A DNA stretch of 64,000 nucleotides from Branchiostoma floridae (lineage: Eukaryota > Chordata > Leptocardii > Amphioxiformes > Branchiostomatidae), in assembly GCF_000003815.2 (NCBI RefSeq), contig NC_049985.1:11971472-12035471 (forward strand), in the 5' to 3' direction. The first letter of the stretch is position 1. Every line of letters begins with the position of its first letter. Shown here piece by piece: positions 18,097 to 60,479 of the stretch. The notes under the pieces are model-generated. The model was given only the letters and a program-made list of their open reading frames with translations. It had not been told where the DNA came from and ran no database searches. Position numbers and translations under genes: made by a program.

Positions 18097-20281
18097 TCAG
18101 CCCCCCACGTATTTGAGTGCATCATAATGCTCGCCGCCAGGTATGTCGATATACGACATCGCCAAAGGAGTGCCTGACTGCTCGCCCTCTGGCGCCAGAA
18201 TCATGACCGGCATGTCCGTACGGCTGGTAATCAGGGCGACTTCCCTCGAGGTGAAATCCGCCAAAGCCACCGGCAGGGTGTCTGCTAGGTCTGAGCACCA
18301 GTGACCCTGCCTCGACAAGTTGTCGAGCTGCTGTTGGAACGCCCAGAAACCGCCCGTAACTGCTACAGAGAACTTCTCTGAGTGAGCTCGAATGTACTGG
18401 ACCAGGTGTTGCCTTAACTGCTGGGCGGTGGTGACGACACTGGGGTCTCCTCTACCGAGTTGTCTGGCGGCGCTGGCGAAGAAACAATCCCCGTTACGGG
18501 GTACCGGGTCCAACTCATAACCACACATGGCTATGTTTTCTAGAAGGATTTCTTCTCGTGTCTTCTGGCTGAGTGTAGTCTGTCCACGTGATGGTCGAGG
18601 GGGCGAAACGGGGAGATTCACAGGTGCTTCAACGATTGATGAGCTACTTGTCAGTGAGGAGATGTCCACAACACTGTCAGCGCCTGAGAAGGCGTCCGAG
18701 GATGAGACTGAGCTGCTTGTGATGGCTACTGTGGAGGTGTCGAAATTACTACCAGCGTCTGTGAGGGTGTCCGGGACTTCATCTTCACATACTGAGCTGC
18801 TTGTGCTCCATGTTACTGTGGAGGAGTCGGAATTACTACCAGCGTCTGTGAGGGTGTCCGGGGCTTCATCTTCACATACTGAGCTGCTTGTGCTCCATGT
18901 TACTGTGGAGGAGTCGGAATTACTACCAGCGTATGAGAAGGTGTCCGGGGCTTCATCTTCACATACTGAGCTGCTTGTGCTCCATGTTACTGTGGAGGTG
19001 TCGGAATTACTACCAGCGTCAGTGAGGGTGTCCGGGCCTTCATCTTCAAAGACGGAGCTGCTTGTGCTGGTTACTGTGGAGGTGTCAGAGTCTGAGGGTG
19101 ATGCAAGGACTGATCTACTTTCTACTGTTGATTTGGAGGTATAAGAGAAAGTATCAGCTTCTGAGTCGGCATCTGGATGTGCTTCAACTGGGGCGTCTTT
19201 GTTATCTTGTGTACCTGGCACACTGACTTGGTCAGAGCTCGCACTATCCTTCTTGCCTTTCAACTCACTGTTGAAGCACTTGTTCCATCCCCTCTTCAAT
19301 TTTCTTGCTCGGGCTTTAATCTTTCTTTCAAACCTGCATGCACAGAAAATATCGTAACCTCATGCATCTACTCGTGTACATAACTTTGACGTGAGAGTCT
19401 TGTTATCAAGGCAAGCACAGAAGACAAAAAATAGACCGAAACATAGCAAACGTGAATCCAATAGTCAAGTATGAAAGGGTCTCGATATAACGTTAATTGA
19501 AACATTATATGACATTTTGGAACGTTGTATACAATGTACAATGATACGTTAAGTCGAAAACAACCTTCGGCAACCTATATCACGTACTCTTAAAACTGAA
19601 ATGAGCAAACGCCAAGCGTCTACGCAGTGAACAGGTGTAACTAAACAGGTAATTGTTGCGCCAAGGAAGTTATAGGTTACGTTGAGCAACAAACATGCAA
19701 AAATATGAACATCCCAAATCGCAGAAACTACAAAATCTGTCTAAGTTCTGTCTTGCATAGTTTGTATATGAAGGAAGGAAATAAAACTGGCAGGACTTTT
19801 CGTCAGGTACTAGTATTTGGAAATCACCAACTTTGTTCATCCAACCCCCACTTAGGATGGGGCTACGAAATGTTTTCAAATGTGTCCCTGTATTGTTTCC
19901 ATCTAGATATACAGTATTATCACAACCATATGTATATTTTCATAAGCTTGGTAGATCAAAGGATATGACATCTAAAAGTACTAACTTTGACCGGTTCTAC
20001 TTCTCGTGTCAAATAACTACAATCCACACATCATTACGAGATTAGTGTAGAATGTACGAAGAAGCTATGCCTTTCGTCAGACGTCTGCCTTCATTTCACA
20101 TCATCAAGTGAAATCTAAGTCGACATGACAATGAAGTGCATGACTAGATGAATGTATCTGAAAACTTCGTAGTCATGTTAACGTTACCCGTGTGTTTTAC
20201 TTACCAACTCTCCTTCCACTGAGCCGGTACAACATCAATATCGACCGGGTGAACCCGGTTTTTAGATAACTTACAACCCAT
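18097..20281 (-). CDS. OTU-family cysteine protease with N-terminal acylation signal (2 exons)
   Basis: Join on the minus strand: exon 1 20281-20205, exon 2 19333-18097; total 1314 nt, 437 residues. Exon 1 starts ATG with an in-frame TAG 12 bases upstream, and ends at TTG|GTAAGT (phase 2). Exon 2 begins after TGCATGCAG, restoring frame. The N-terminus is MGCKLSKNR, a Gly2 myristoylation / Cys3 palmitoylation pattern followed by basic residues. A basic stretch (ERKIKARARKLKRGWNK) spans the splice. The middle is Ser/Thr/Asp-rich with three full 29-residue repeats plus partial ones. The C-terminal OTU domain, about residues 280-437, has NGDCFF (Asp308, Cys309) and EHYDAL (His428), the expected catalytic set. 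OTU proteases cleave ubiquitin chains; membrane anchoring here is predicted, and substrate and linkage type are unknown. Confidence 0.85.
18767..19027 (-). repeat. 87-bp in-frame coding tandem repeat in the OTU gene
   Basis: GTGTCCGGG (plus strand) recurs at 18767, 18854, 18941 and 19028, exactly 87 bp apart. It encodes three full copies of a 29-residue unit (DTLTDAGSN...SSSVCEDEAP) with degenerate copies on both sides. Each unit has one Cys, one Trp and an acidic cluster. Confidence 0.93.
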
Positions 20282-26507: not shown

Positions 26508-26565
26508 ATGATGATGGTCTTACCCATAATCCTCATCGCTACGTGGATGACATCAGCTACTACGG
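26508..26565 (+). CDS. Receptor exon 1: signal peptide
   Basis: Three consecutive ATGs, the third followed by G. The translation [19 protein letters not shown] is hydrophobic and ends in small residues suited to signal peptidase. It ends G|GTAGGT, phase 1. An acceptor-like TTTTACAG at 26427 suggests that an untranslated exon lies upstream. Confidence 0.8.
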
Positions 26566-29500
26566 GTAGGTCCTGTAGTCAAGATAGTTATTTTTGTCAG
26601 AAGTAAAAAAAAGATACGGTTTAACTATAAAAAATAAAACTCAATCAGAATCATATCATTTCCAATGCTGGAAATGATAGCCCTCAGGAAGAAAGGTTTT
26701 GTACAGTGGATCAAAGTTACTCAAACTCTCTCCCATTGTTAACTCTCTCTTGTATCCTGCTCACAATGTTCACAACTTTTCCCACAAGAGTATTGAGTAA
26801 TGTAATGTCATGAGACGCAAAATGTAACAGCAGTCAATATCTGTTAGTTGGATTATCAGATTAAGCACGGCTGAAACTCAGGTCAAGAAAGGATTCAGGT
26901 TTTTGTCATCAAATCGTCACCACTTGACAAAAACCCCATTCATATCATGCCTCTTTCTCAACCTCACGTTTGTGAACCTCACGTTTGTAAGCTCCTCCTT
27001 CAACTGTGTGTTATCATACATGAACTTTATTGCACGACATTTGCACATGGCACAAAGTATGGCAACGAATATTACACAAAGTACAAAGATAGGTATAAAG
27101 AATAAGTCTTAACATCTTAGTCCTTGAAATGGATCTAAAGGTGGTATCTCGCTGCACTTAGGGAACCGGTGAGGCACTGCAGGGTTCGTTCACTGCGGAA
27201 CTGTTGCGTAATGCATAAAAGTATAACTTACGAGACAACAAAATACACAAAACGCAAGAATTCGTTCTTTATCTCTGAAATTAGTTGAGTAATCTTTCGA
27301 ACCCACACCGGTGCCCCAAATACAGTGAGATGCCACCTCAAAAGCTACGATTTTATCTTGACCACAGATATAAAAAAATCACATCCAATCCTATCCGATC
27401 AAATCCAAACATATACACTTGTAATCATGTCGTACTGAGCCAACACCTGACTGTGGTGTTTTGAAAAGTTGCCATGCATCATTTCATCCACTCATTTTTA
27501 ATAGCAACTTCACTGTCATGTCTAGATTTATTTTTCTTTGGTGGCGAAAAACGTATTTTACTCTCCTCAAATTCATAGCTCGCACTCTACTGTTGCATGG
27601 AATACTGAGGTTTAAATGAATGAAGACCTTTATTGTACAATTTTGCCCAACCGGGCTAATACTAAAAAATGAGAGGAACGTGTTTGGCGGTACAGAATAT
27701 TTATTAAGGAGAGTTGAACACATTTCGACAACATGGAGGATCCCCAATTAGAAAACCTGACTGTGGTGTTTTAAAAAGTCGCATTGCATCATTTCATCAA
27801 CTCTATCTTTGATGGGAACGTCACTGTCACGTCTATATATATATATTTCGGACACGAAGGACACAAATAGAAGTCAGTTGTCCAACCACCCAGTATGTCT
27901 AAAGTTGTATATGCCATGCCACGTATGTTATTTAATGTTCTCTAGTCGGGAAAGAGTGGAGCCTAACAGTGCATAAGATTGATACGTCAGGTGGTTGACC
28001 AGAAATGTCCAGAAGTTTGTCAAACGCCATGTGTGCTTGGGTACAACATGTGCCTTGTTTTAGGACGTTCACCCGAGCACACATTCCCGGCCAGCAAATC
28101 GGGCTCACAGCCAAAACCAAAACAAGCTGAGTCTTTGCGGTCTCTTGGAGTGTGTCAGGCATGCTGACCGAGAAAGAGTTACGAGGATATGTAGGCTACG
28201 TACATGTTTTACACTTACAGTCTATACTGGTTGAACTTTCATGTACATTTGCATATGGCGTTATATAATATATAAGTTTTATTGCAAGTTCTTGCCCGAG
28301 GGCTTATTGCAAGTGACAAAAATGACATACAAATAATGGTAAACAGTATAGTGAGCGACTACTCTAGTCTAATTTAAAACTAGTTAAAGATGTAACTTAT
28401 TGGGTTTGACTTATTTTTCCGAAACAGTGGAAAACGAAAGATCCCACTTTTTCTGTAATGTGTGGGTTTTGCGACGTTAAAGGGAGAATAGTTTTCTTTT
28501 TGTCTGTAAACATGGAGATATTAGGATAAAATTTGGTGACTTTTTTCAAGAGCTCTTTTCTCTCTTGATTATAGAAGGGGCAGTTTGAGATAAAATGTGT
28601 TTCGTCTTCTACCATATCTAACGTACAGTATTTACAAGTTCTTTCATACACGGATAACTTCTTGTATCGCCCTTTTTCTATTTCAAGGGGGTGGGCACTA
28701 ATTCTGATTTTAGTAATAGCACAACGCAGATCAAAATCAAATGTACATGAAAGAGAATGTAAGAACGAATCCAAATTTTCCTGCCAGATTCCAGGTTTAA
28801 CCATCAAACATGGCAGACAATACTTACGTCACAGTCACGTGAGTGCAAACACCTCTATCTTGTTTGTGTACCAGGAAATTAGAAGTGGATGATTGACATC
28901 GGTCTACTTCTTTTAGCCTTTAATAATACTACAACGTTATGAAGCAGCTCAGTATTTTATGACGTTTTGTTAAGGCAGTTCAGTGAGTCTCTATTCGGCT
29001 CCTGCCGTCGCAGGTCAGCCCAGCCCGTCCCCCTCCCCCTGTCCCCTGGGAGAGTTCCCGTGCGGGAACCTGTCCCTCTGCCTGCCGCAGAGACTGCACT
29101 GTAACGGGCGGGACGACTGCGGCAACAACGCTGACGAGGAAAGATGTGGTAAGTGAAAAATTCACAGAAACGAATTTCATTTTCTTTCAACATATTTCAT
29201 ACCTCAGTCATAGAATAACTAACTTTAAGAAACAAACCTGGTAATGATGGGTTTATTCAATTCATCTGGTTTCCATTCTATTGTAGAATTAGTCTTATCC
29301 TCTGATCGCTGCAGTGACAGGGAAAAATGCAGAAAGAGTATAGACGTGTACATGTAGGTCATTTAGGGTTGATACCAACCTAACGCTGGTATCTTCGTGT
29401 GAAGCCCCCCCCCCTTCAGTGTAAGATGTTAAGGGAAATTTTGGTGTTGAATAAGATTCGCACTTTCAGCTTTAAGTTCTTTAGGTCCCACTTTTCAAAT

Positions 29501-32500
29501 TTCATGCCAAGAAAAACACATTTTGTTCAAGTACATTTTTGCCCCCAACAAGATCTTGACAGTGTGGATTAACGGTTGTTGGACAACACATGTCCGTCCA
29601 CAGCACGCAACTTCCGCTGGGAGGGGAAAGAAACAGAGTCACTGACATCGGGGAATCCGAACCAGTGCCAAGATGGGAGCTGTCCAAGTTTGTTAAGTCC
29701 TGACCGTGTTTTGTGTTTTCTCCAGGTGACAATAATGGATGGGCCGATGACTTTGATGCGTTTCACGCCACAAGAATCCGTGAAGGAAATTCGAGGGAGA
29801 GCGACTCATGCAGTAAGTTGGGTGCTGCTTGGTCCTAAAATGACGATCCAATTTGTGTTTGGGACTGTATACTGTATGATTTCCAAGCAAATATGAGAAG
29901 GCAAAAGCGCAATCTCTGGGCAGATTTTTCGGAGGCATAAGAATGAAATAAAGCAAACGGAGATGAATGTGTTTGGCAGTACAGAATATTTGATAAGGAG
30001 AGTTGAACAAGAATCTAAAATGGAGGATCTCCAATTGGAAAACCTGGCTCTGGTGTTTTAAAAGATTTCGTCATGTATCATTTCATCAACTCTATCTTTG
30101 ATCAATATCACATTTACATTTTTTCTGACACGAAGAAATAAGCCGGCTAATAGCCACTCCTTGGAAACTTTTTACCTGGTGATGTCCAGATTTGTAAACC
30201 AAACATGGCGGACAATACCATCAAATGTAGTCACGAGGGTGCCAGAATCTTATAGGGGGAGCTTTCATCCATGTGTTGTACATACTTATCAACAAGGTTA
30301 AACTTTGTAACGTTTTCAGCAAGATATTTTACTGTTTGCTATAATTTCATATCCCCAGCTCTCATGTCGGTACCCGCTCTGTGCACGTGTGAAAAGAAGA
30401 CCCGGGTTACCTGTAACAACACCGGGCTTTACAACATACCTGCGGATATCTCCATCAACGTCACCAGATTGTGAGTATGATGTCACCAAATATGTGTACT
30501 TCGTAATGGCAGCACCTGGATTGTTTTGGTAAAACCTGTACCTTGTCAAAGAACTTTCGTCTTTTTGCAATTTTGTTCCGCTGTCAACTGCGTTGCTTGG
30601 CTCCAAAATGAAATTTAGTAAGAGATGAAATCGTGGGTGGTCATTCTGTGGTTGTACCAAGGACAAGACTCTCATTTTTGTTTTTTGTTGTAACTTTGAT
30701 TACAAGAAATTGGAGAAACTCGCACGGTTTCAGTGGGCATCAGTTGCATTTGTGCATGACATAATGGTCCAAATTAACTGCTTTCCTAGCATTCTTCTTG
30801 AGATGCCAATATTGTTCCAGCGTTAGATAACATTGTATTGTTAAGCAACGTTTAATTTTCATTCCTGCTAGCAACAGCAACTTGCCAACGGGGCATTTTC
30901 TTATTCCTTTAAGTGGTAACTCCATGCTTTTTACACACAAAAAGTACGCTATGCAAAATATGTCGCTTCATTATCACTTTTGTGTTCTAAAACGACTGTA
31001 GACTCAAGTATCTTCCAATGACTCAAAGGAATGAAAGCTGCTGTTTTTGCCACCCTAACGCTATTGCATAACACGTTATTTTGAGAACAAACGGCCACTT
31101 GTGTGAAAACACTGCCTTTGAAAAACAGTCAGTCAGGGTTTCCCGTACTTGCTGCTTTCCCACAGCGACTATAATGCTAGGAAAGGCAAGCGTAAATGAA
31201 AAGTTGGAAACACCCCGTACAAATCACCTCCTCCAGTTGATACACAGTGGAACAAAGGACCTTCAAGTGTCAGCCTGATACTGTGCATACCTTCTGTCGT
31301 CTTTCATCGCATGGAGCTCTAATGGCAACGGGTTAGAGCGGCATCAAGGAGGGATGCCTGTGGGACCTGATAAGGCAACGACATGGAGTGGATGTTGTGT
31401 AGAAAAAAACGTCTTGGAACACAAACAACACCATAGATCACATGTCACGAGTGCACTCCCAGAGCGACTTGAACGTACTTGTTTGTAAGCCTGAACACTG
31501 TTGTACTCTATGATAACCGTTCCCACCTTACCACACACACTCACTCATACAGTCACCTCAACAGGCAACTGTTACATGATTTTGATCAACTATTTTCTTA
31601 ATAGCATCAGAAACGCGGATTTCAAAAGATTTGTAGGTTAGGACCACCAATGTTCTGAGAATATTATTATATATATATTATAATAATATTCCATTAGGTT
31701 ATATACAAAACAATACTCTCGTTATAAGCAAGCAATTCCCATGTACTGAGAAGTGTCTACGATATAGATTTAGAGAACTCTTTCATTGCCTCTGAAAGAT
31801 GCCTCTCTTGAAAATAAACGACCGCTATGAATTGAGCGCATATATATGTTTTTATCAAAGCCTTAGCAACACATCCAAGGAACTGTCATGTTACGGCGGG
31901 TGCCATTATAAACAGATTTGAACAGTATTGTCATGCATCACTAAACCTAAAAAGCACGATGTGATGTTGTCGTTAAAGTCTGGATCGAATCAAACTAGAC
32001 AGGAGAGAATTTCTTGCAGTTTGTTTAAAAGGTTGTTTCTCAAGTGTACGATTGAGTGCCTTGGGAACCACAATGACCTGTAACTATTGTTCTACATCTG
32101 GATTTCATCAGATGGGATTCATTAGGAAATGCCTTGGTGCCACGGGCCTCGACGAAAACTAACAATGAAACTTTTCATTTGAACTGAATGTCTTGATAGA
32201 TATCAAGACGCTTTAAGGAGGGCGTGTTTTATTGCAACTTCAAAAGATGAAATTCCATTGGCTAACGAAGGATTCAAAATCATCGAAAAAAAATTCTTTA
32301 GTTTTATCTGTTCCTTGGTAGTTCAGCATGCAGTAACATACTCTGGAGCACTGCCAACATTGCACGTGCACTCGACAAGTGGTGGCTTTATATCATCAAC
32401 TAATTAGACACCATCTGGAGCTAGTTATCGGTTAAGCCTTAACATAATGAAGAAAGCCACTTGTTAACTACATGCCTTCACAAGAATTCAGAATCCTGAC

Positions 32501-35500
32501 GCGCCAGATAGTAAGACTTTTAAAAAACCGTTTCCTATCGTTCAGGCAGTCGTGAGTGATACGCACCAAGTGTGATGGAGGAAATGCTGACATTGACTTA
32601 ACCTCCCTAGGCCTCGCTGATCGATACATTTGAAATTGGTGTACTAAGCCTGTGCGAATAATCATAAATCATTACTTAGAAAGTTGGACCGTAAAAATAT
32701 GTTTGTGCACTACAAGAAAAAGAGACAAAATGAGTTTCAACATCGTAACATATTTATCAATAGTGATTAGGTTTTTCCGTTCTTTCATTTCAAGTAGCTG
32801 CTCGAAATTTTGTTGGTTTGATTGTGTTTGTTTACCTTCGTGTCGCTTCACTCAGCAATATCATTTCGGGTACTTAAAGCAGCATGTGCTAAAATTTCAT
32901 CATTGATTGATAATAATGGTACAATTTTCTTTCTTTGTTTTACCTTTGTGCTTCTTATTCAATTCTAGGAAAATTGACAACGAGAACATCAAAACGTTAC
33001 AGAATGACTCCTTCATGCGCTACATCAACTTAGAATCACTGTAAGTACCTTCTATAATGAACACAATATGTATCAGGCTGACAAGATTACTTACTCATTT
33101 GGAAAAAAAGATACCATCGCCTAAAGGTTTTGCCTAAACCTGTCCTTTGACTTTAACATTTGCTTTGTACGTATCAGTACGTTTATCAAATAGTTATGAT
33201 CATATTTAGTATCAAACGAATATCAAATGCAGTTTCGCAATCGCCCATTTTGATAGGACAATGCTATCGATGGGCTTCGTTGAGGAGCGATGTTATATTT
33301 GAACCGGTACTGTGAAGAGTTTACGTCATACTTCGACACTACATCTCCACCTCCTAAACGGGAGTAGGCCAAACGTGAATGTCCCCACCCGCGCTGGGAG
33401 CACGGCGTCCCCTCTCTAACCTTCCTCTCAACATTTCAGGAATTTGCCGAGAAACCAGATCCAGCTCATCGAGCCAACCGCCTTCAGGGGATTACGCAAT
33501 CTCGCCAAGCTGTAGGTCTTCATTGTTGTTTCACCAAACATAGCTTGGCTTTTGTCCTAACGTTAGGATCTCCCGTAATTACCTTTCATCGAACTAACGC
33601 CTTTATGCATTTTAATTGTTTAACGTTTGTTATCTGATAACTACTGGTTTGACAAACTATTGTTGTTGAGAGAGCTTGTAGCTGCGAAACAATAGCGTCG
33701 TCTCTAAAACCTTTGAACTACGTGCTAAGTATTTGCATGATATTCAAATGCAAATTAGTCTTATAGAGCTTCTGGGTTTAAACATCCAACATGGCGGACA
33801 GAACACTACATGGAATGTGCGTCGTCTCTAAAACCTTTGAACTACGTACTAAGTATTTACATGATATTCAAAAGCAAATTAGTCTTATAAAGCTTCTGGG
33901 TTTAACCATCCAACATGGCGGACAGAAGACTACATGGAATGTTCCGCATATACAGCTGTCAGGATGGCCGAGCGGTCTAAGGCGCTGCGTTCAGGTCGCA
34001 GTCTGGTTCTCCAGGCGTGGGTTCGAATCCCACTTCTGACAGACCTTCCTTTTGTTTCCACAATTTGTTTTCTTTCTGAAAGGTTGTATCTACTTCTTCT
34101 TTGCTTTAGAAATCTTCAGGAAAATCGGATTAGATCCTTTCACGTGGATACCTTTGCAGAACTACACAAACTTGCTCGGCTGTAAGTAGGATGATTTTTA
34201 TGCTTCATCGTTTGTAGAAATTATGTCCAGTCATTCCTACGGTTAGAGGGAAGCAATGCGGAGTCTGATATTCTCCTTCCTTACAGATTCCTTTCACACA
34301 ATGAAATAGAGACACTGATGCCAGGGACCTTCAGAAATCTGCACGAGCTCCAATGGTTGTAAGTCAGACTCTTAGTTGCATACTAGCATTTGCATTGACG
34401 TGGCCAAGACGTATGTATTATCCACCATCTTAGGTTGTTTGAACCTTGAAGTTGCACGGGTAAACTCTGTAGATGTTGGTACAGCCGCGCAATTACACAC
34501 TATCCACATAAAATGATTAATACGGTATTATGGCTGTGTGGTCATTGCATTTGCTTCAACCATACACTAAGAGAGATGTGTTATAATGAAATTCGTGTTA
34601 ATATTTTGCAGGTATCTTGAAGACAACAAGCTGACGACAATACACCCTGGCACCTTTAGTGGACTGGGAAACGTTCACTGGTTGTAAGTTCACTTGGTTG
34701 TAATTTTTCTGTTATTCATACAATATATATCACATAAAGATATAAACAAACACAGTTGAACATGCCATATCCCGTATCCCATATCTTTTTTTGAGCAATT
34801 GTATCATCATCATCATCATCCGGGCGTGCTGGTTCGTCCAAGTGGCCACGGTGAAGCTCATAGTGAATACTGACGACCGAAACGCTCATCAATTCTATGT
34901 GGTTTAGAAAACTGGGCAATGTTCCAACGTTCCTCACCGACTCTTTGTAAACAAGTCTTAATTTATACAGCTGATATATAGAACGATCCTCTTGAGTGAG
35001 TTTGAAGCAGCCGCTAGCTGTTCTCTCGTGCGGTAACCATGCCCACCCACTGTTAGTCTGAGGGAATACACTCAAATATAACGTAGCTGATGAAGTCCAG
35101 CGGGCCAGTTTGAGCCAATCCCCAAGNNNNNNNNNNNNNNNNNNNNNNNNNNNNNNNNNNNNNNNNNNNNNNNNNNNNNNNNNNNNNNNNNNNNNNNNNN
35201 NNNNNNNNNNNNNNNNNNNNNNNNNNAGTGAGTTTGAAGCAGCCGCTAGCTGTTCTCTCGTGCGGTAACCATGCCCACCCACTGTTAGTCTGAGGGAATA
35301 CACTCAAATATAACGTAGCTGATGAAGTCCAGCGGGCCAGTTTGAGCCTATACCACCAAGTGGGGATTTCCGGCGAAAATCAAACCCACCTTCTTTATTG
35401 ACATATACACAAAGCTTGACTAAGATCAGGTAACATTGTTCACATGGGAGTCGTTCAAGTTCAAAAATAAAGTTCTTTCACATCGCCATTAAACTGACTG

Positions 35501-38500
35501 GAATTGCCGTTGGGATTTCAAAAATCATATTAATGAATGACAGTGCGACTAACATTACGTTGTTTTCTCTCCCATATGGTTTCAGAGGCCTTATGGGGAA
35601 CAGGTTGCAGACATTAGATGGTGGGGGGATCTGCCATGACGCACCTTCCATCAGATGGCTGTAAGAAATGTTATATGTACTGTTGTATAGATACTGTAAA
35701 ATATTTAGTACAGAGTGTTAGTACTTCAACCAACGTAAAGTATCTGTCAGACATGCCGACCTTGACTGTCCGACCTTCTCCATACCATGGTTGGAAGCTA
35801 ACCGTGAGATACTAGAAAGGTCATGAGCTTATATTTGGTCAGGAGTTGGTCAGCGAGGTTGTCTGGTAGTCTTTCAAAATTTTGAAAATTTGATAAGTCG
35901 AAAGTCATATATTTTGTTTTGGTGCGATCAGGGGTGAGAACTGAAGGTAAGATAGGTAACATTCCAGCCTACTCTCTCTCGAACGATGACATTGATTGGG
36001 GAGTGGTCGAAAGCAAAGCCGTGGGAAAGTCCTGAGAGTGTCACGGGGGCTCTACGAGCAAAATAATCTACACAATTGCATCCATACTTGTACATCAAAC
36101 ACTACAGTAAGTATACCTATATATCATCAATGACAACGNNNNNNNNNNNNNNNNNNNNNNNNNNNNNNNNNNNNNNNNNNNNNNNNNNNNNNNNNNNNNN
36201 NNNNNNNNNNNNNNNNNNNNNNNNNNNNNNNNNNNNNNNNNNNNNNNNNNNNNNNNNNNNNNNNNNNNNNNNNNNNNNNNNNNNNNNNNNNNNNNNNNNN
36301 NNNNNNNNNNNNNNNNNNNNNNNNNNNNNNNNNNNNNNNNNNNNNNNNNNNNNNNNNNNNNNNNNNNNNNNNNNNNNNNNNTATTTCCATCAGCTATGGC
36401 AGTCGATGTATACTGCATTACGTATAGTTGAAGAGAGTATACTGTATAACGTATAGTCGAAGATTTTCGTAGTCTCATTGGTGATTAGCAAAAGGTTAGA
36501 GATGCACTATTTGGGTGACAGTATACGTGACTTTTTTGTTACCATAATTTTCTCCGTGGTTGTATTGTTGTCTTCACGTTTTTCATCATTTGTCTTTTTG
36601 ACAGATCTCTTGGGAACAACAAAATATCAACGATCGAGCCCCATGCGTTCGACTGTTTGTCACAGCTTAGCGACCTGTGAGTATGAAATGTCACGTAGAA
36701 TGCAATGTATGCTTTGGGATGCTTTAGAGAACAGCACTTTTTGAAACTTGGAGTTTGAAACTTGGACATAATATTATTGGTGAAACATGCAAGAAAATTG
36801 TTTAAAAGGACGTCTCTCTCTTTTTCACCATCCAGGGACCTCTCAGCGAACAACATCTCAACATTCCCACCCAAGCCGTTCGTCAAGTTGAAGATGTTGG
36901 ACAATCTGTAAGCATGGTCTTGCTTTTATTGTATTACATGATGATGTTGTTTCACTGCTATCTAGAACTTGTATCCAGTAAAACATGTATGTGCTGCCTT
37001 GAGCAAAACTTGATTTATTACTCGATTCTGTCCGCTAGCTCCATATGTTGTGCTTCATATGTTGCGCTTCATGTGACTATGACCGTACTGTATATAGTTT
37101 GACTGAGTAAAATTCCTACAGTGTATATTAGAATATTTTCTTAAACTATAGAGCAAATCTTGTCTTTAAGGAACATCTCGCTCAATCCACTGCAATCGAT
37201 GGACGAAGATGTCTTTGAAGGACTCGACAGAATTAAGTCGCTGTACGTATACATTATATTTTTTTTTTTTTTTACTCAACGGTCACCACGTTGTTACACG
37301 GTTGTGACTTCACAGTATTTATCACATGTTTTCAAAACCAATCATCAACTGCATTAATGGACATATTCTTGGATGTTATACTGGAGAGTCTAAATGTTAT
37401 ATATGTACATATTATATACATCATACTGATATGAGATGAGATGATATCATAACACAAGTATCATTTGACTAACTTAATTACAACGTTTTATGTTATAGTA
37501 ATTTCAATGTATGCAAAATAGTAGTTCACCTCTTCATGTGTTTGTAAATGTTTATGTTTCATTTACAGAGCGATTGTTGATGTGGGCGTCGCCGGGAAGG
37601 ACTTTTCCACAGCTATGTTTGATAACACCACGAACCTGGACCATGTGTAAGTCAGGTCTAATTTAGAATCGTCAAACTTTCGTTTAAGATATCTAATTGG
37701 TTTGACCACTATGCCAATGGTTATCTCAATGGTAGTTTCTCTACATTTAAGTCAACGAGACAGCGTATTCAGTATTGTGCTGGGTACTCTGGGTTCGTCG
37801 GTTACAAATATTTTGAAAAATATTTGCTGGCTGAATTTTCTACTCACAAGGGTTTAAGATGATAACTAACTTGTATTCGCTACATCTCAAAGCACATATT
37901 CGTTCAACATGTTAATGACCTCATGTCTGTAACACAATTACTATTGCAGATACTTCAGCAAGTTCCGATACTGTAACTTCGCCCTGCACGTGCGCCACTG
38001 TGAGCCGAACTCTGACGGTATCTCCTCCCTGGAGCACCTCCTGGCGCGGGGCGTGTTACGGGTGTGTGTGTGGGTCATCGCCGTGCTGACCTGCACCGGG
38101 AACACGTGCGTCATGATCGGCAGGTCACTCATGAAACACGAGAACAAGGTCCACTCGCTCTTCATCAAGAATCTCTGTGGTAAGATGGCGCTTCTTTTTG
38201 TGATAGGGTGTTCGCAATCACGTGACTGTGACGTCGTATTCATCCGTGGAGTAACATATATCCGTTGTTTTTATAAACATTTAGGAATATCAGGTCAATG
38301 ACAATGGACGGTGTGTTTGAATGGTAATAATTTGAAAACATTGCAGTTTGAAATCACTGTCTTTGATATCCCTAAATACGGATATGGGTTACCGCCGATA
38401 AAGGTAATCTTGCGTCACTGTCCGCCATGTTGGATGGTTAAACCGGGAATTTTCCAAGTAAATCTGAGCATGTCTAAGTGTTGGCTCTTGTCCGCCGTGA

Positions 38501-40291
38501 TTGTGTATCACATGCAAAAGTTAACATAATGTCACTAAAATATCTCACTGCATTGTATCACGTTTTCAGCGTCAGATCTCGTGATGGGAGTCTACCTGAT
38601 CATCATCGGCACGAAAGACGTCGTCTACCGAGGCATCTACAACCGGCACGCGTTGGAATGGAAGGAAAGCTTCGGCTGCCAGTTTACAGGGTTCCTCGCC
38701 ATGCTCTCCTCGGAGGTGTCGGTTCTCCTTCTAACCTACATGTCCGTGGAGAGATTTCTCTGCGTCGTGTTCCCGTACCGCGACAGGAGACCCAACGTGC
38801 GGCAAGCAGCCGTCGTGCTCATTGCGATATGGCTGACTGGGTTCTTTCTTGCCTTCTCGCCGCTGATTGGTCACGGGTTGGGTTACTTTGACAGTTTCTA
38901 TGGCAACAACGGCGTGTGTTTCCCCCTGCATCTGCACCAGCCGTACTTGAGGGGATGGGAGTACAGTGCGTTCATCTTTCTCGGGGTCAATTTCACCTCC
39001 TTGTTGATCATCCTGTCAGCTTACACCGGCATGTTCATCTCCATCCAGCGCACACGGCGGTCCATCGCCTCCTCTTTCACTACGTTTGGGGACATGTCCT
39101 TTGCTACCCGGTTCTTCTTCATCGTGCTCACGGACTCCCTGGTCTGGATTCCCATCACTGCACTCAAGTTCCTGGCGTTCACTTCTCTCAAATTTCAGGT
39201 AAATTCGCTGAGCCCCAAAGTTTTAAAAAGAGAGATATGAAACATAGGTGTTATGTCTGTGACTAGTGCTGTAATTTCATACCTAAAAATTATGTATTAT
39301 GATTGATATCGCTCATACATTTAACCGTTTTCCTGCAAGCGTTTAAGGTATTTAATCGAGTAACCTGGAATCCTGTCATTCGAGGCTTGCCAAACCGTAA
39401 AGCTAGTGGACGTGAAAATCCTACCGGGTGTAGACGATTACCCCGGCGGCAGAGAGCTCCATCTGCCCCGTAAAGAGCTCACACTAGCTACGTAGGGCAA
39501 GCCACGAATGGCTGGATTCCAGGTTACGAACCTAGCTAATAAGACATTCAGAGAAAAAACCTAAGAACGACTGCTCTTTCAGGTTCCATGTACGCTTGGA
39601 TCGTGATCTTCATCCTGCCGATCAACAGCGCCATCAACCCCATCCTGTACTCCCTCACCACACGGACCTTCAGCGGCGTGCTGTGCAGCTTCGTCAAAAA
39701 GATCCACCTAAAACGCTTTCGTGCGTCCACCAACAGGCCGTTAGTACTCAGGCAACAAGGTAAGACAGTTGTAGGAATGACACAACCCTTCGTAAACTGC
39801 CAATAAAACCTCACAAACGTTGAGCGGTAGACTTACGACAGAAAATCACATTTTAGGCAGTCTTGAATGCGTTGTTCTAATTTTATTCAGCTGAAACGGT
39901 TGCCAGAGTGTTTTGTAGTTGGTGTCGTCTTTTTTGGCTTCGGCGTTCGCTACAAGTAACAAGACACCTTACGATGCACTTGTATCATTTAGCCTTTTCC
40001 TTAAGTTTTCGGTGCATCTATAGCAAGTGATTCTCTTTATGAAAAATTTTTCTCCAAATTGTAGTGAAGCGTTCGTCGGATTCCGATACGTCAGCTGGTA
40101 CCACCTGTACGACTGCGTCAGCGTTAAACAGCACACCCAACAGGACGCCCTCTTCCAGTACAGTAAACGGCACGACTTCTGTCGGTTTGGGGAAGAACTG
40201 CACACTTGACAGCGTCCCGGAACGGAATTCAAGCGAGGATGGTGGTTGGGAGTCCATTAAAACAAACGGAGACGACGTTTTTGAACCGTGA
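26508..40291 (+). CDS. RXFP1/2-like: Relaxin-family receptor-like GPCR (LDLa-LRR-7TM), 18 exons, 804 aa
   Basis: Exons: 26508-26565, 29014-29148, 29726-29812, 30359-30470, 32969-33040, 33440-33511, 34110-34181, 34287-34358, 34612-34683, 35586-35660, 36605-36676, 36836-36907, 37171-37242, 37569-37646, 37950-38179, 38570-39198, 39552-39759, 40065-40291. The order is signal peptide (1-19), LDLa (29-64), GDNNGW linker (65-93), LRRNT (94-131), ten LRRs (131-374), Cys-rich hinge, seven TM helices (about 409-695), and Ser/Thr-rich tail with FEP* end. This is the RXFP1/2 architecture: surface receptors for relaxin-type peptides that signal through Gs, where the LDLa module is needed for activation. 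All junctions are GT-AG and phases agree, except doubt at the 39551 acceptor. Vertebrate RXFP1/2 are about 755 residues. An LRR exon is probably hidden in the gap at 36139-36381. Whether it is an RXFP1/2 orthologue or one of several lancelet paralogues needs a tree. Confidence 0.9.
27018..27115. repeat. Retroposon 3'-tail-like fragment
   Basis: TGAACTTTATTGCACGACATTTGCACATGG resembles the reverse complement of a LINE tail, with the AATAAAGTTC signal on the minus strand. Family not identified. Confidence 0.4.
27137..27340. mobile_element. MITE family C (AAAGGTGG termini), copy 1
   Basis: AAAGGTGGTATCTCGCTGCAC on the left and CAGTGAGATGCCACCT on the right, with CACCGGTGCCCC and AATTCGTTCTTTATCTCT inside. 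It is the same family as 58867-59097. It lies in receptor intron 1. Confidence 0.85.
27446..27522. repeat. Dispersed repeat R1, partial copy
   Basis: CCTGACTGTGGTGTTTTGAAA through CATCATTTCATC to TCACTGTCATGTCT matches only the right half of R1. Confidence 0.75.
27680..27832. repeat. Dispersed repeat R1, copy 1
   Basis: GTGTTTGGCGGTACAGAATAT to TTTCATCAACTCTATCTTTGAT. A second copy is at 29969-30102 and a partial one at 27446-27522, all within introns around the receptor LDLa exon. Confidence 0.85.
28270..28807 (-). pseudogene. 3' fragment of a non-LTR retrotransposon (LINE) ORF2
   Basis: The minus-strand frame 28807-28397 encodes 136 residues with [16 protein letters not shown], then ERTCKYC and [17 protein letters not shown]. 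This is the Cys/His (CxxC-x9-H-x4-C) region that follows reverse transcriptase in many non-LTR elements. No RT or endonuclease domain precedes it, so the copy is 5'-truncated. Minus-strand 28396-28270 would be the 3' UTR, ending near an AATAAAAC signal. It lies in receptor intron 1. Confidence 0.75.
28790..28862. repeat. Dispersed repeat R2 (intact copy)
   Basis: GGTTTAACCATCAAACATGG through GTCACAGTCACGTGAGTGCAAACACC. Related copies: 30187-30245, both units of 33695-33941 (core only), and the two halves around the MITE at 38205-38470. Confidence 0.7.
29014..29148 (+). CDS. Receptor exon 2: LDLa module
   Basis: Phase 1 at both ends. Six cysteines (29, 36, 42, 49, 55, 64) are in LDLa spacing: [10 protein letters not shown] at the start, then [16 protein letters not shown] and ADEERC. 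The [14 protein letters not shown] segment supplies the calcium ligands. Very close to the RXFP LDLa. Confidence 0.95.
29726..29812 (+). CDS. Receptor exon 3: LDLa-LRR linker
   Basis: Encodes [18 protein letters not shown] and a short tail ending in Cys93. Phase 1 at both ends. GDNNGW directly after the LDLa is the linker signature of RXFP1/2, where the linker contributes to ligand binding and activation. Confidence 0.92.
29969..30102. repeat. Dispersed repeat R1, copy 2
   Basis: GTGTTTGGCAGTACAGAATAT to TTTGATCAATATC. It matches 27680-27832 along its length; both copies are followed by related DNA containing GACACGAAG and TGTCCAGA. Confidence 0.85.
30187..30245. repeat. Dispersed repeat R2, diverged copy
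   Basis: TGTCCAGATTTGTAAACC, then AAACATGGCGGACAATACC and GTAGTCACGAGGGTGCC, in the same order as at 28790-28862. Confidence 0.6.
30359..30470 (+). CDS. Receptor exon 4: LRR N-terminal cap
   Basis: Starts after ATCCCCAG and ends TT|GTGAGT (phase 2). Cys residues in [14 protein letters not shown] form the LRRNT cap; then [16 protein letters not shown] leads into the first LRR. NVT and NNT are possible N-glycosylation sites. Confidence 0.92.
32969..33040 (+). CDS. Receptor exon 5: LRR 1
   Basis: 72 nt, phase 2 to phase 2, [10 protein letters not shown]...LESL. This is the weakest LRR consensus, as is usual for the first repeat. Confidence 0.9.
33440..33511 (+). CDS. Receptor exon 6: LRR 2
   Basis: 72 nt, phase 2 to 2; [18 protein letters not shown] is a typical LxxNxI repeat and aligns with the second repeat of RXFP1. 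Confidence 0.93.
33695..33941. repeat. 124-bp tandem duplication upstream of the tRNA gene
   Basis: GCGTCGTCTCTAAAACC occurs at 33695 and 33819, and both copies end with CAACATGGCGGACAGAA and TACATGGAATG. The two copies differ at only a few positions. The duplication ends 17 bp before the tRNA. Confidence 0.9.
33958..34041 (+). tRNA. tRNA-Leu (anticodon CAG)
   Basis: 84 nt including discriminator A. The acceptor stem GTCAGGA pairs with TTCTGAC (one G-U). Box A is TGGCCGAGCGG and box B is GGTTCGAATCC. The anticodon arm is CTGCG-TTCAGGT-CGCAG with CAG at the centre, and the long variable arm is that of a class II tRNA. No intron and no encoded CCA, as in eukaryotes. It lies within a receptor intron in the same orientation. 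Confidence 0.96.
34110..34181 (+). CDS. Receptor exon 7: LRR 3 (extra relative to vertebrate RXFP1)
   Basis: 72 nt, phase 2 to 2; [18 protein letters not shown]. The repeats on either side align with RXFP1 LRR2 and LRR3, leaving this one unpaired. It is most like LRR 2 (N-L-x-x-N-x-I) and may be a duplicated exon. Confidence 0.92.
34287..34358 (+). CDS. Receptor exon 8: LRR 4
   Basis: 72 nt, phase 2 to 2; [18 protein letters not shown] ending LQWL. Aligns with RXFP1 LRR3 (LSHN core). Confidence 0.93.
34612..34683 (+). CDS. Receptor exon 9: LRR 5
   Basis: 72 nt, phase 2 to 2; [18 protein letters not shown] ending VHWL. The EDN core aligns with RXFP1 LRR4. Confidence 0.93.
34800..34820. repeat. 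(ATC)n microsatellite at a LINE/SINE-like 3' end
   Basis: About seven ATC units abut a block (34821-35116) which, read on the minus strand, resembles a retroposon tail ending in (GAT)n. Exact family unknown. Confidence 0.7.
34995..35348. repeat. Identical 122-bp segments on both sides of an assembly gap
   Basis: 34995-35116 and 35227-35348 appear identical by eye, flanking exactly 100 N. This is more likely an unmerged contig overlap than a real duplication. Confidence 0.85.
35127..35226. other. Assembly gap (100 N)
   Basis: Exactly 100 N, the usual placeholder for unknown length. It lies in the intron between receptor LRR exons 5 and 6. Confidence 0.99.
35586..35660 (+). CDS. Receptor exon 10: LRR 6 (25-residue type)
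   Basis: 75 nt, one codon longer than its neighbours; [20 protein letters not shown] ending IRWL. The extra residue and the Cys match the single 25-residue LRR of RXFP1 (its LRR5), which fixes the register of the alignment. Confidence 0.92.
36139..36381. other. Assembly gap (243 N)
   Basis: Lies between receptor LRR exons 35586-35660 and 36605-36676, where comparison with RXFP1 predicts a further 72-nt LRR exon. Confidence 0.99.
36408..36465. repeat. ~29-bp tandem duplication
   Basis: GTATACTGCATTACGTATAG and GTATACTGTATAACGTATAG, both followed by TYGAAGA, lie in tandem just right of the 243-N gap. Confidence 0.8.
36605..36676 (+). CDS. Receptor exon 11: LRR 7
   Basis: 72 nt, phase 2 to 2; [18 protein letters not shown] ending LSDL. 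It aligns best with RXFP1 LRR7 (RKNKINHL), not LRR6. Confidence 0.93.
36836..36907 (+). CDS. Receptor exon 12: LRR 8
   Basis: 72 nt, phase 2 to 2; [18 protein letters not shown], a clear match to RXFP1 LRR8 including the PP after the beta strand. Confidence 0.93.
37171..37242 (+). CDS. Receptor exon 13: LRR 9
   Basis: 72 nt, phase 2 to 2; [18 protein letters not shown] ending IKSL, matching RXFP1 LRR9 (NPIQ core). The donor is CT|GTACGT. Confidence 0.92.
37569..37646 (+). CDS. Receptor exon 14: LRR 10
   Basis: 78 nt, phase 2 to 2; [17 protein letters not shown] ending LDHV. A degenerate last repeat, as in RXFP1, two codons longer than the others. Confidence 0.9.
37950..38179 (+). CDS. Receptor exon 15: hinge and TM1
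   Basis: 230 nt, phase 2 to phase 1. [17 protein letters not shown] is the Cys-containing cap after the LRRs and matches the RXFP YFKKFQYC...C hinge. It is followed by [14 protein letters not shown] and then TM1 (about residues 409-431), with GN in TM1 conserved. Confidence 0.95.
38236..38415. mobile_element. Fold-back MITE family A, copy 6, in receptor intron 15
   Basis: GTAACATATATCCGTTGTTTTTAT on the left and CGGATATGGGTTACCGCCGATAAAGG on the right, with the central GTTTGAA dyad. It interrupts another dispersed repeat whose halves flank it (CACGTGACTGTGACG left, GTCCGCCATGTTGGATGG right). Confidence 0.82.
38570..39198 (+). CDS. Receptor exon 16: TM2 to TM6
   Basis: 629 nt, phase 1 to phase 0. 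[12 protein letters not shown] is TM2; Cys487 at the top of TM3 and the Cys in GVCFPLH in ECL2 form the expected disulfide. The E/DRY position is [11 protein letters not shown], the non-DRY form usual in this receptor group. TM6 is [16 protein letters not shown] continuous open frame makes this the longest exon. Confidence 0.96.
39361..39526. mobile_element. MITE family E (TAACCTGGAATCC termini), copy 1
   Basis: TAACCTGGAATCC at 39361 and GGATTCCAGGTTA ending at 39526 are inverted repeats, with GGCTTGCC/GGCAAGCC inside. It lies in the last TM intron, 25 bp before the 39551 acceptor. A diverged relative is at 55965-56101. Confidence 0.85.
39552..39759 (+). CDS. Receptor exon 17: TM7 and start of C-tail
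   Basis: [20 protein letters not shown] then [13 protein letters not shown] gives TM7 with NPILY (about 689-693) and helix 8. The stronger-looking acceptor (CTGCTCTTTCAG, ending 39582) would break the frame with the phase-0 donor at 39198. The weaker acceptor ending at 39551 keeps frame but adds about ten residues ([10 protein letters not shown]) to ECL3. The 5' edge is therefore uncertain; the 3' edge (CAA G|GTAAGA) is clear. Confidence 0.75.
40065..40291 (+). CDS. Receptor exon 18: cytoplasmic tail
   Basis: Begins after AAATTGTAG, phase 1, and encodes [14 protein letters not shown]... to DDVFEP and TGA. Rich in Ser/Thr, suited to phosphorylation and arrestin binding. A possible ATTAAA polyadenylation signal lies at 40890. 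Confidence 0.85.
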
Positions 40292-60228: not shown

Positions 60229-60479
60229 NNNNNNNNNNNNNNNNNNNNNNNNNNNNNNNNNNNNNNNNNNNNNNNNNNNNNNNNNNNNNNNNNNNNNNNN
60301 NNNNNNNNNNNNNNNNNNNNNNNNNNNNNNNNNNNNNNNNNNNNNNNNNNNNNNNNNNNNNNNNNNNNNNNNNNNNNNNNNNNNNNNNNNNNNNNNNNNN
60401 NNNNNNNNNNNNNNNNNNNNNNNNNNNNNNNNNNNNNNNNNNNNNNNNNNNNNNNNNNNNNNNNNNNNNNNNNNNNNNN
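60229..60479. other. Assembly gap (251 N)
   Basis: Run of N in non-coding DNA. Confidence 0.99.

Follow-up and report, generated by a model that had tools for sequence, protein, structure and literature searches.

One leucine-rich repeat (LRR) appears to be missing from a relaxin-receptor-like gene of the lancelet, and the question is whether its exon was lost or lies hidden in an assembly gap. The window that we analyzed covers 64,000 nucleotides of contig C7 (G000:C7:11971472-12035471), one of the 431 contigs that make up an assembly of 513,431,437 bases. The receptor gene lies on its plus strand. It begins with a presumed signal peptide exon (26508..26565, ending in phase 1), followed by an LDLa exon (29014..29148; Pfam Ldl_recept_a, 6.9e-08), a linker exon (29726..29812) with a GDNNGW motif beginning at the junction to the LDLa exon, and an LRRNT exon (30359..30470). 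Ten LRR exons are visible, and the introns that separate them are in phase 2 throughout. They encode LRR1 (32969..33040), LRR2 (33440..33511), an extra LRR2-like repeat (34110..34181), LRR3 (34287..34358), LRR4 (34612..34683), LRR5 (35586..35660; 75 nt, 25 residues), LRR7 (36605..36676), LRR8 (36836..36907), LRR9 (37171..37242) and LRR10 (37569..37646; 78 nt). The gene ends with a hinge and TM1 exon (37950..38179), a TM2-TM6 exon (38570..39198) and a TM7 exon (39583..39759). A tRNA-Leu (CAG) gene at 33957-34042 is located within one of the receptor-gene introns on the same strand, and the same intron contains a 124-nt tandem duplication (33695-33942) with 95% identity between the copies.

The original prediction held that an LRR6 exon is concealed in a gap between LRR5 and the next visible repeat. 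A run of 243 N at 36139-36381 indeed interrupts the intron at 35661..36604, which measures 944 nt including the gap. Its statement that the flanking introns are in phase 2 also holds: the 75-nt exon 35586-35660 and the 72-nt exons 36605-36676, 36836-36907 and 37171-37242 are each bordered by AG and GT and flanked by phase-2 introns.

Judged by its predicted protein, the gene encodes a leucine-rich-repeat receptor of the RXFP1/2 type (type C1). An N-terminal LDLa is followed by the GDNNGW linker, as expected for the RXFP/LGR3 branch of type C1 LGRs, and the LRR domain is linked by a short hinge to a rhodopsin-type 7TM region. The passages of PMC11863921 on intron positions give a phase-1 intron in TM2 as a mark of this branch. 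Exon 37950-38179 ends in phase 1 at a position that the RXFP1 alignment places in TM2. Because of this intron, together with the LDLa, we assign the gene to the RXFP/LGR3 branch as outlined there. A phase-1 intron in TM5 is described in the same passages for the human and starfish genes and is not among the introns they list for the annelid gene. In contrast to the human and starfish genes, the window gene lacks it and encodes TM2-6 in one exon (38570-39198). A phase-0 intron after the TM7 exon is given there as a mark of LGR4-type genes. The donor after 39759 ends in phase 1 by arithmetic, in one TM7 frame, with the TM6/TM7 junction one base off in the assembly. The end of the TM2-6 exon (39150-39199) is in phase 0 in the window gene, while in four C7 paralogues a Gly codon is split there in phase 1. 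This one-base offset could stem from an error in the assembly or mean that the frame is truly broken.

The closest known system is human RXFP1 (LGR7; chain 7tmw_R), which phmmer aligned to query residues 8-637 with an E-value of 2.9e-153. Both proteins share the LDLa, the GDNNGW linker, the LRRNT, an LRR array with a 25-residue LRR5, the hinge and the 7TM region. The 75-nt exon at 35586 had been identified as LRR5 of RXFP1, and this repeat is its best match. Two differences concern the repeats: the window gene has one extra LRR2-like repeat before LRR3, and LRR6 is not visible. The extra repeat upstream of LRR5, which the original prediction left out along with a 100-N gap in the preceding intron, brings the visible total to ten, equal to RXFP1. 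In a full-length phmmer alignment ten repeats were aligned to the ten RXFP1 repeats with none dropped. In another phmmer alignment the LRR region was divided into overlapping parts, and exon 36605 took the place of LRR6 in one of them and of LRR7 in another. A repeat-by-repeat alignment to RXFP1 scored highest when LRR6 was omitted (398), compared to 386 for omission of LRR7 and 319 without a shift. In the preferred alignment an additional repeat of the window gene stands near the start and RXFP1 LRR6 is left unpartnered; after centring, the score of this alignment was reached by 2 of 3000 random repeat orders. Exon 36605 itself shares seven identities with RXFP1 LRR6 and seven with LRR7 (scores 18 and 30), a weak margin that is too small to rely on. 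The RXFP1-based case of the original prediction was therefore weaker than it looked, since exon 36605, if it were LRR6, would put the missing repeat into the fully sequenced intron 36677-36835.

Paralogues were searched with the TM2-6 exon as query in the same assembly only. The 17 matches comprised the window gene, four close C7 paralogues (68-71% identity), a fifth gene on C3 in several intron-split rows, and more distant receptors. Including the window gene, we counted six RXFP-type genes. Five amphioxus rxfp1/2-type genes are reported in the section of PMC3310001 that covers them, and the two sets may not coincide. The five C7 genes, window gene included, are 65-73% identical in TM2-6; the C3 gene stands outside this comparison. 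A TM2-6 tree did not resolve the nearest paralogue of the window gene, with three of the four inner branches open. Among genome contigs and viral contigs, 53 and 3 pattern matches to the TM2-6 exon were returned and none was confirmed. On contig C7 the RXFP-type genes form two clusters: one of three equally oriented genes within and near the window (C7:11.93-12.05 Mb), the other, some 3.2 Mb distant, of two convergent genes (C7:8.71-8.73 Mb).

The exons were read from 20 kb of DNA per paralogue in four cases and from 13 kb in the remaining one; eight GPCR loci retrieved along with the search were left out of the comparison. All five (C7:11.93, C7:12.04, C7:8.716, C7:8.725 and C3:17.72 Mb) resemble the window gene in the exon-per-repeat layout and in the 75-nt LRR5 exon (5/5). 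They differ from it in that LRR6 is visible and that the extra upstream repeat was not found at its position, and the additional LRR2-like repeat (33440-34181 region) is probably a gain in the window gene. LRR1-10 were located in 49 of 50 slots across the five genes, the exception being LRR10 of the C3 gene, which was not resolved. Between the 75-nt LRR5 exon and LRR7, every paralogue has an exon at the LRR6 position. Three of these exons measure 72 nt and read ELDQNRIQRLCPEMFAGCANLTI- (C7:12042206), ELERNSISSIGPETLQGCQVLTV- (C7:8728961, minus strand) and EMEGNDIEQLTSSSFTRCSSLTV- (C3:17717021). The exon at C7:11931487, DLESNLLSSLEMFRGYRNFAAT-, has 69 nt. At C7:8711889, FLQANQIEILRRKAFIGCGHLEI- has its GT donor one base beyond the frame; this off-phase donor is either an assembly slip or marks a damaged exon, and LRR6 may be decaying there. 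The predicted size of 72 nt is thus matched in four of five paralogues, counting the one with the shifted donor, but not in the 69-nt gene, and 72 nt remains the likeliest size of a hidden exon.

These paralogues also bear on the identity of exon 36605. If this exon were LRR6, LRR7 would be the missing repeat, and nothing would be hidden, since intron 36677-36835 is fully sequenced. An N-anchored phmmer alignment (domain 2) does put exon 36605 on RXFP1 LRR6, and the margin against RXFP1 is small, as described above. However, with profiles that include the paralogues exon 36605 scored 26.8 as LRR7 and only 8.4 as LRR6. The scores as LRR2 (27.0) and LRR8 (22.9) were similar to that as LRR7, so that among these three classes the order in the gene decides for LRR7. 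In a leave-out test of the profiles, run without two later-found LRR6 exons (the 69-nt exon and the one that is one base off), the own class was assigned in 41 of 49 cases (LRR6 4/4, LRR7 4/5). Summed BLOSUM62 scores of exon 36605 were 30, 46, 40, 28, 27 and 44 against six LRR7s, and 18, 25, 26, 19 and 9 against five LRR6s, a set that does not contain the 69-nt LRR6. The Cys-x-x-Leu-Thr ending of four of six LRR6 repeats is absent from exon 36605, which instead ends in Ser-Asp-Leu; an acidic residue precedes the last Leu in five of six LRR7s and in none of five LRR6s. An assignment of exon 36605 to LRR6 is hence highly improbable. The original prediction had read the next visible exons as LRR7 to LRR10, and the paralogues favor LRR7 over LRR6 for the first of them where RXFP1 alone was indecisive.

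If LRR6 is the repeat without a visible exon, it could still lie in the sequenced part of the intron. A gap in the right intron alone is not evidence for an exon; the exon must also fall wholly inside the gap. An LRR profile run on both strands of the visible 701 nt of intron 35661-36604 gave a best score of only -5.9. The eight 24-residue LRR exons of the gene scored 10.5-39.6 with the same profile, each left out in turn, and elsewhere in the window two unrelated frames reached 12.7 and 12.6. LRR6 and LRR7 profiles gave no match on the plus strand of the visible intron (best -6.1). A fixed 24-residue profile can miss odd repeats, and the real 69-nt paralogue LRR6 exon scores just -3.9. We therefore also listed all plus-strand exons in the visible intron that are open in phase 2 and 60-90 nt long; none of the six candidates had an LxxNxLxxL start. 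This motif is met by eight of the ten LRR exons of the window gene, and in a control listing of 16 candidates from the paralogue interval it flagged the real 69-nt LRR6 exon alone. On neither side of the 243-N gap did we find an LRR-like frame that could be a partial exon.

The window contains three N runs, at 35127-35226 (100), 36139-36381 (243) and 60229-60479 (251). We rejected the 100-N gap as the hiding place of the exon, because it precedes LRR5 and seems to separate two overlapping ends that were left unmerged. An identical 122 nt stands on each side of it (34995-35116 and 35227-35348), as would be expected of contig ends that failed to merge or of a tandem copy. The real length of this intron is probably about 670 nt rather than 902 nt, since these 122 nt are duplicated around the gap. 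Around the 243-N gap, a 29-bp tandem repeat (1.9 copies, 36408-36463) begins 26 nt to the right, and the left flank shares repeats with other places in the assembly. Both are a possible alternative reason for the gap. A haplotig search of the assembly with the left flank revealed no second copy; of its 38 matches, the window alone was full-length and the others spanned at most 203 nt.

We infer a hidden LRR6 exon from the observed exon order and phases, the gap, the lack of a detected LRR exon in the visible intron and the exons at the LRR6 position of the paralogues. The repeat would be encoded by one phase-2 exon, roughly 72 nt long, within the 243-N gap, and the complete receptor would have eleven LRRs, not ten. 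Alternatively, LRR6 was truly lost, the gap is coincidental, and ten LRRs remain after an upstream gain and one loss. The extra upstream repeat lends some weight to such a loss, as the repeat number of the window gene has already been altered once, and the visible total of ten, as in RXFP1, aligns in full length without a dropped repeat. The nearby tandem repeat would offer another cause for the gap, and PMC7682835 gives nine LRRs, from domain prediction, for a starfish relative. Against a loss, the LRR6 position is empty in none of the five paralogues, and repeat loss appears rare because 49 of 50 repeat slots are filled.

Spacing was considered as well. Taken as one LRR intron, 944 nt would be long, with 3 of 50 reaching this length, while the distances from LRR5 end to LRR7 start in the paralogues are 1090, 932, 668, 589 and 1264 nt. 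The 944-nt interval fits a hidden exon because it falls within this range of 589-1264 nt. A lognormal intron-length model gave likelihood ratios of 0.95 (50 introns) and of 2.38, 0.66 and 0.56 (three sets from the window gene alone). Since this model is near neutral, the weight rests on the paralogues. With loss rates derived from them, the roughly estimated posterior for a hidden LRR6 was 0.77-0.99; with a pessimistic prior of 30-50% loss it was 0.36-0.85. Taken together, the presence of LRR6 in all five paralogues, the spacing and the lack of a detected LRR exon in the visible intron make it very likely that the LRR6 exon is hidden in the 243-N gap, as had been proposed, and leave a true loss an unlikely alternative.

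In RXFP1, the repeat in question takes part in relaxin binding. The relaxin B-chain residues Arg13, Arg17 and Ile20 bind Asp231, Asp279, Glu233 and Glu277, according to the binding-site description in PMC4837482, and the part of PMC4561518 that treats this site assigns the acidic partners of Arg13 and Arg17 to LRR6 and LRR8. We counted the RXFP1 residues from GDNNGW in the chain, with the mature number being the chain number minus 21. By this numbering Asp231 opens LRR6 and Glu233 is its third residue, in line with the earlier claim that LRR6 carries relaxin-binding acids; Glu277 is residue 23 of LRR7, and Asp279 is the first residue of LRR8. At the two positions aligned with Glu277 and Asp279, in exons 36605 and 36836, the window gene has Asp in each case. 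Four of five paralogues have acidic residues at both the Asp231 and Glu233 positions (E/D, E/E, E/E and D/E); the fifth has Phe/Gln. Because of these four, we predict that the hidden exon starts with acidic-Leu-acidic-x-Asn. Going by these sequence comparisons, the acidic-x-acidic pair of the hidden LRR6 would hold one arginine of a relaxin-type B-chain, like Asp231/Glu233, and the acids of LRR7 and LRR8 (Asp/Asp) would hold the other. By analogy with RXFP1 work, capture of the ligand might be followed by LDLa-driven activation.

Very probably, then, an ordinary assembly gap hides an ordinary conserved exon, which is mainly a gap to close and not a biological novelty. If the exon lies in the gap, the gene and homology models built from the assembly are without the repeat that bears one half of the site for the relaxin B-chain, and any conclusions about ligand loss would be mistaken. 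The paralogue evidence is the useful outcome: it renders the claim testable and gives a prediction of exon size and start. That this paralogue truly lacks LRR6 besides having acquired a repeat near its N-terminus seems improbable. If LRR6 were truly absent, the ligand-binding surface would be shifted by one repeat and the Asp231/Glu233-type clamp lost, and the protein, though relaxin-receptor-like, would serve a ligand that lacks the usual arginine cassette.

Elsewhere in the window, the minus strand contains two further open frames. One (18097-19359) encodes an OTU-like cysteine protease domain with a Ser/Thr-rich repeated N-terminal part, and the other (2-751), which combines a SAM domain with a proline-rich tail, runs past the window edge.
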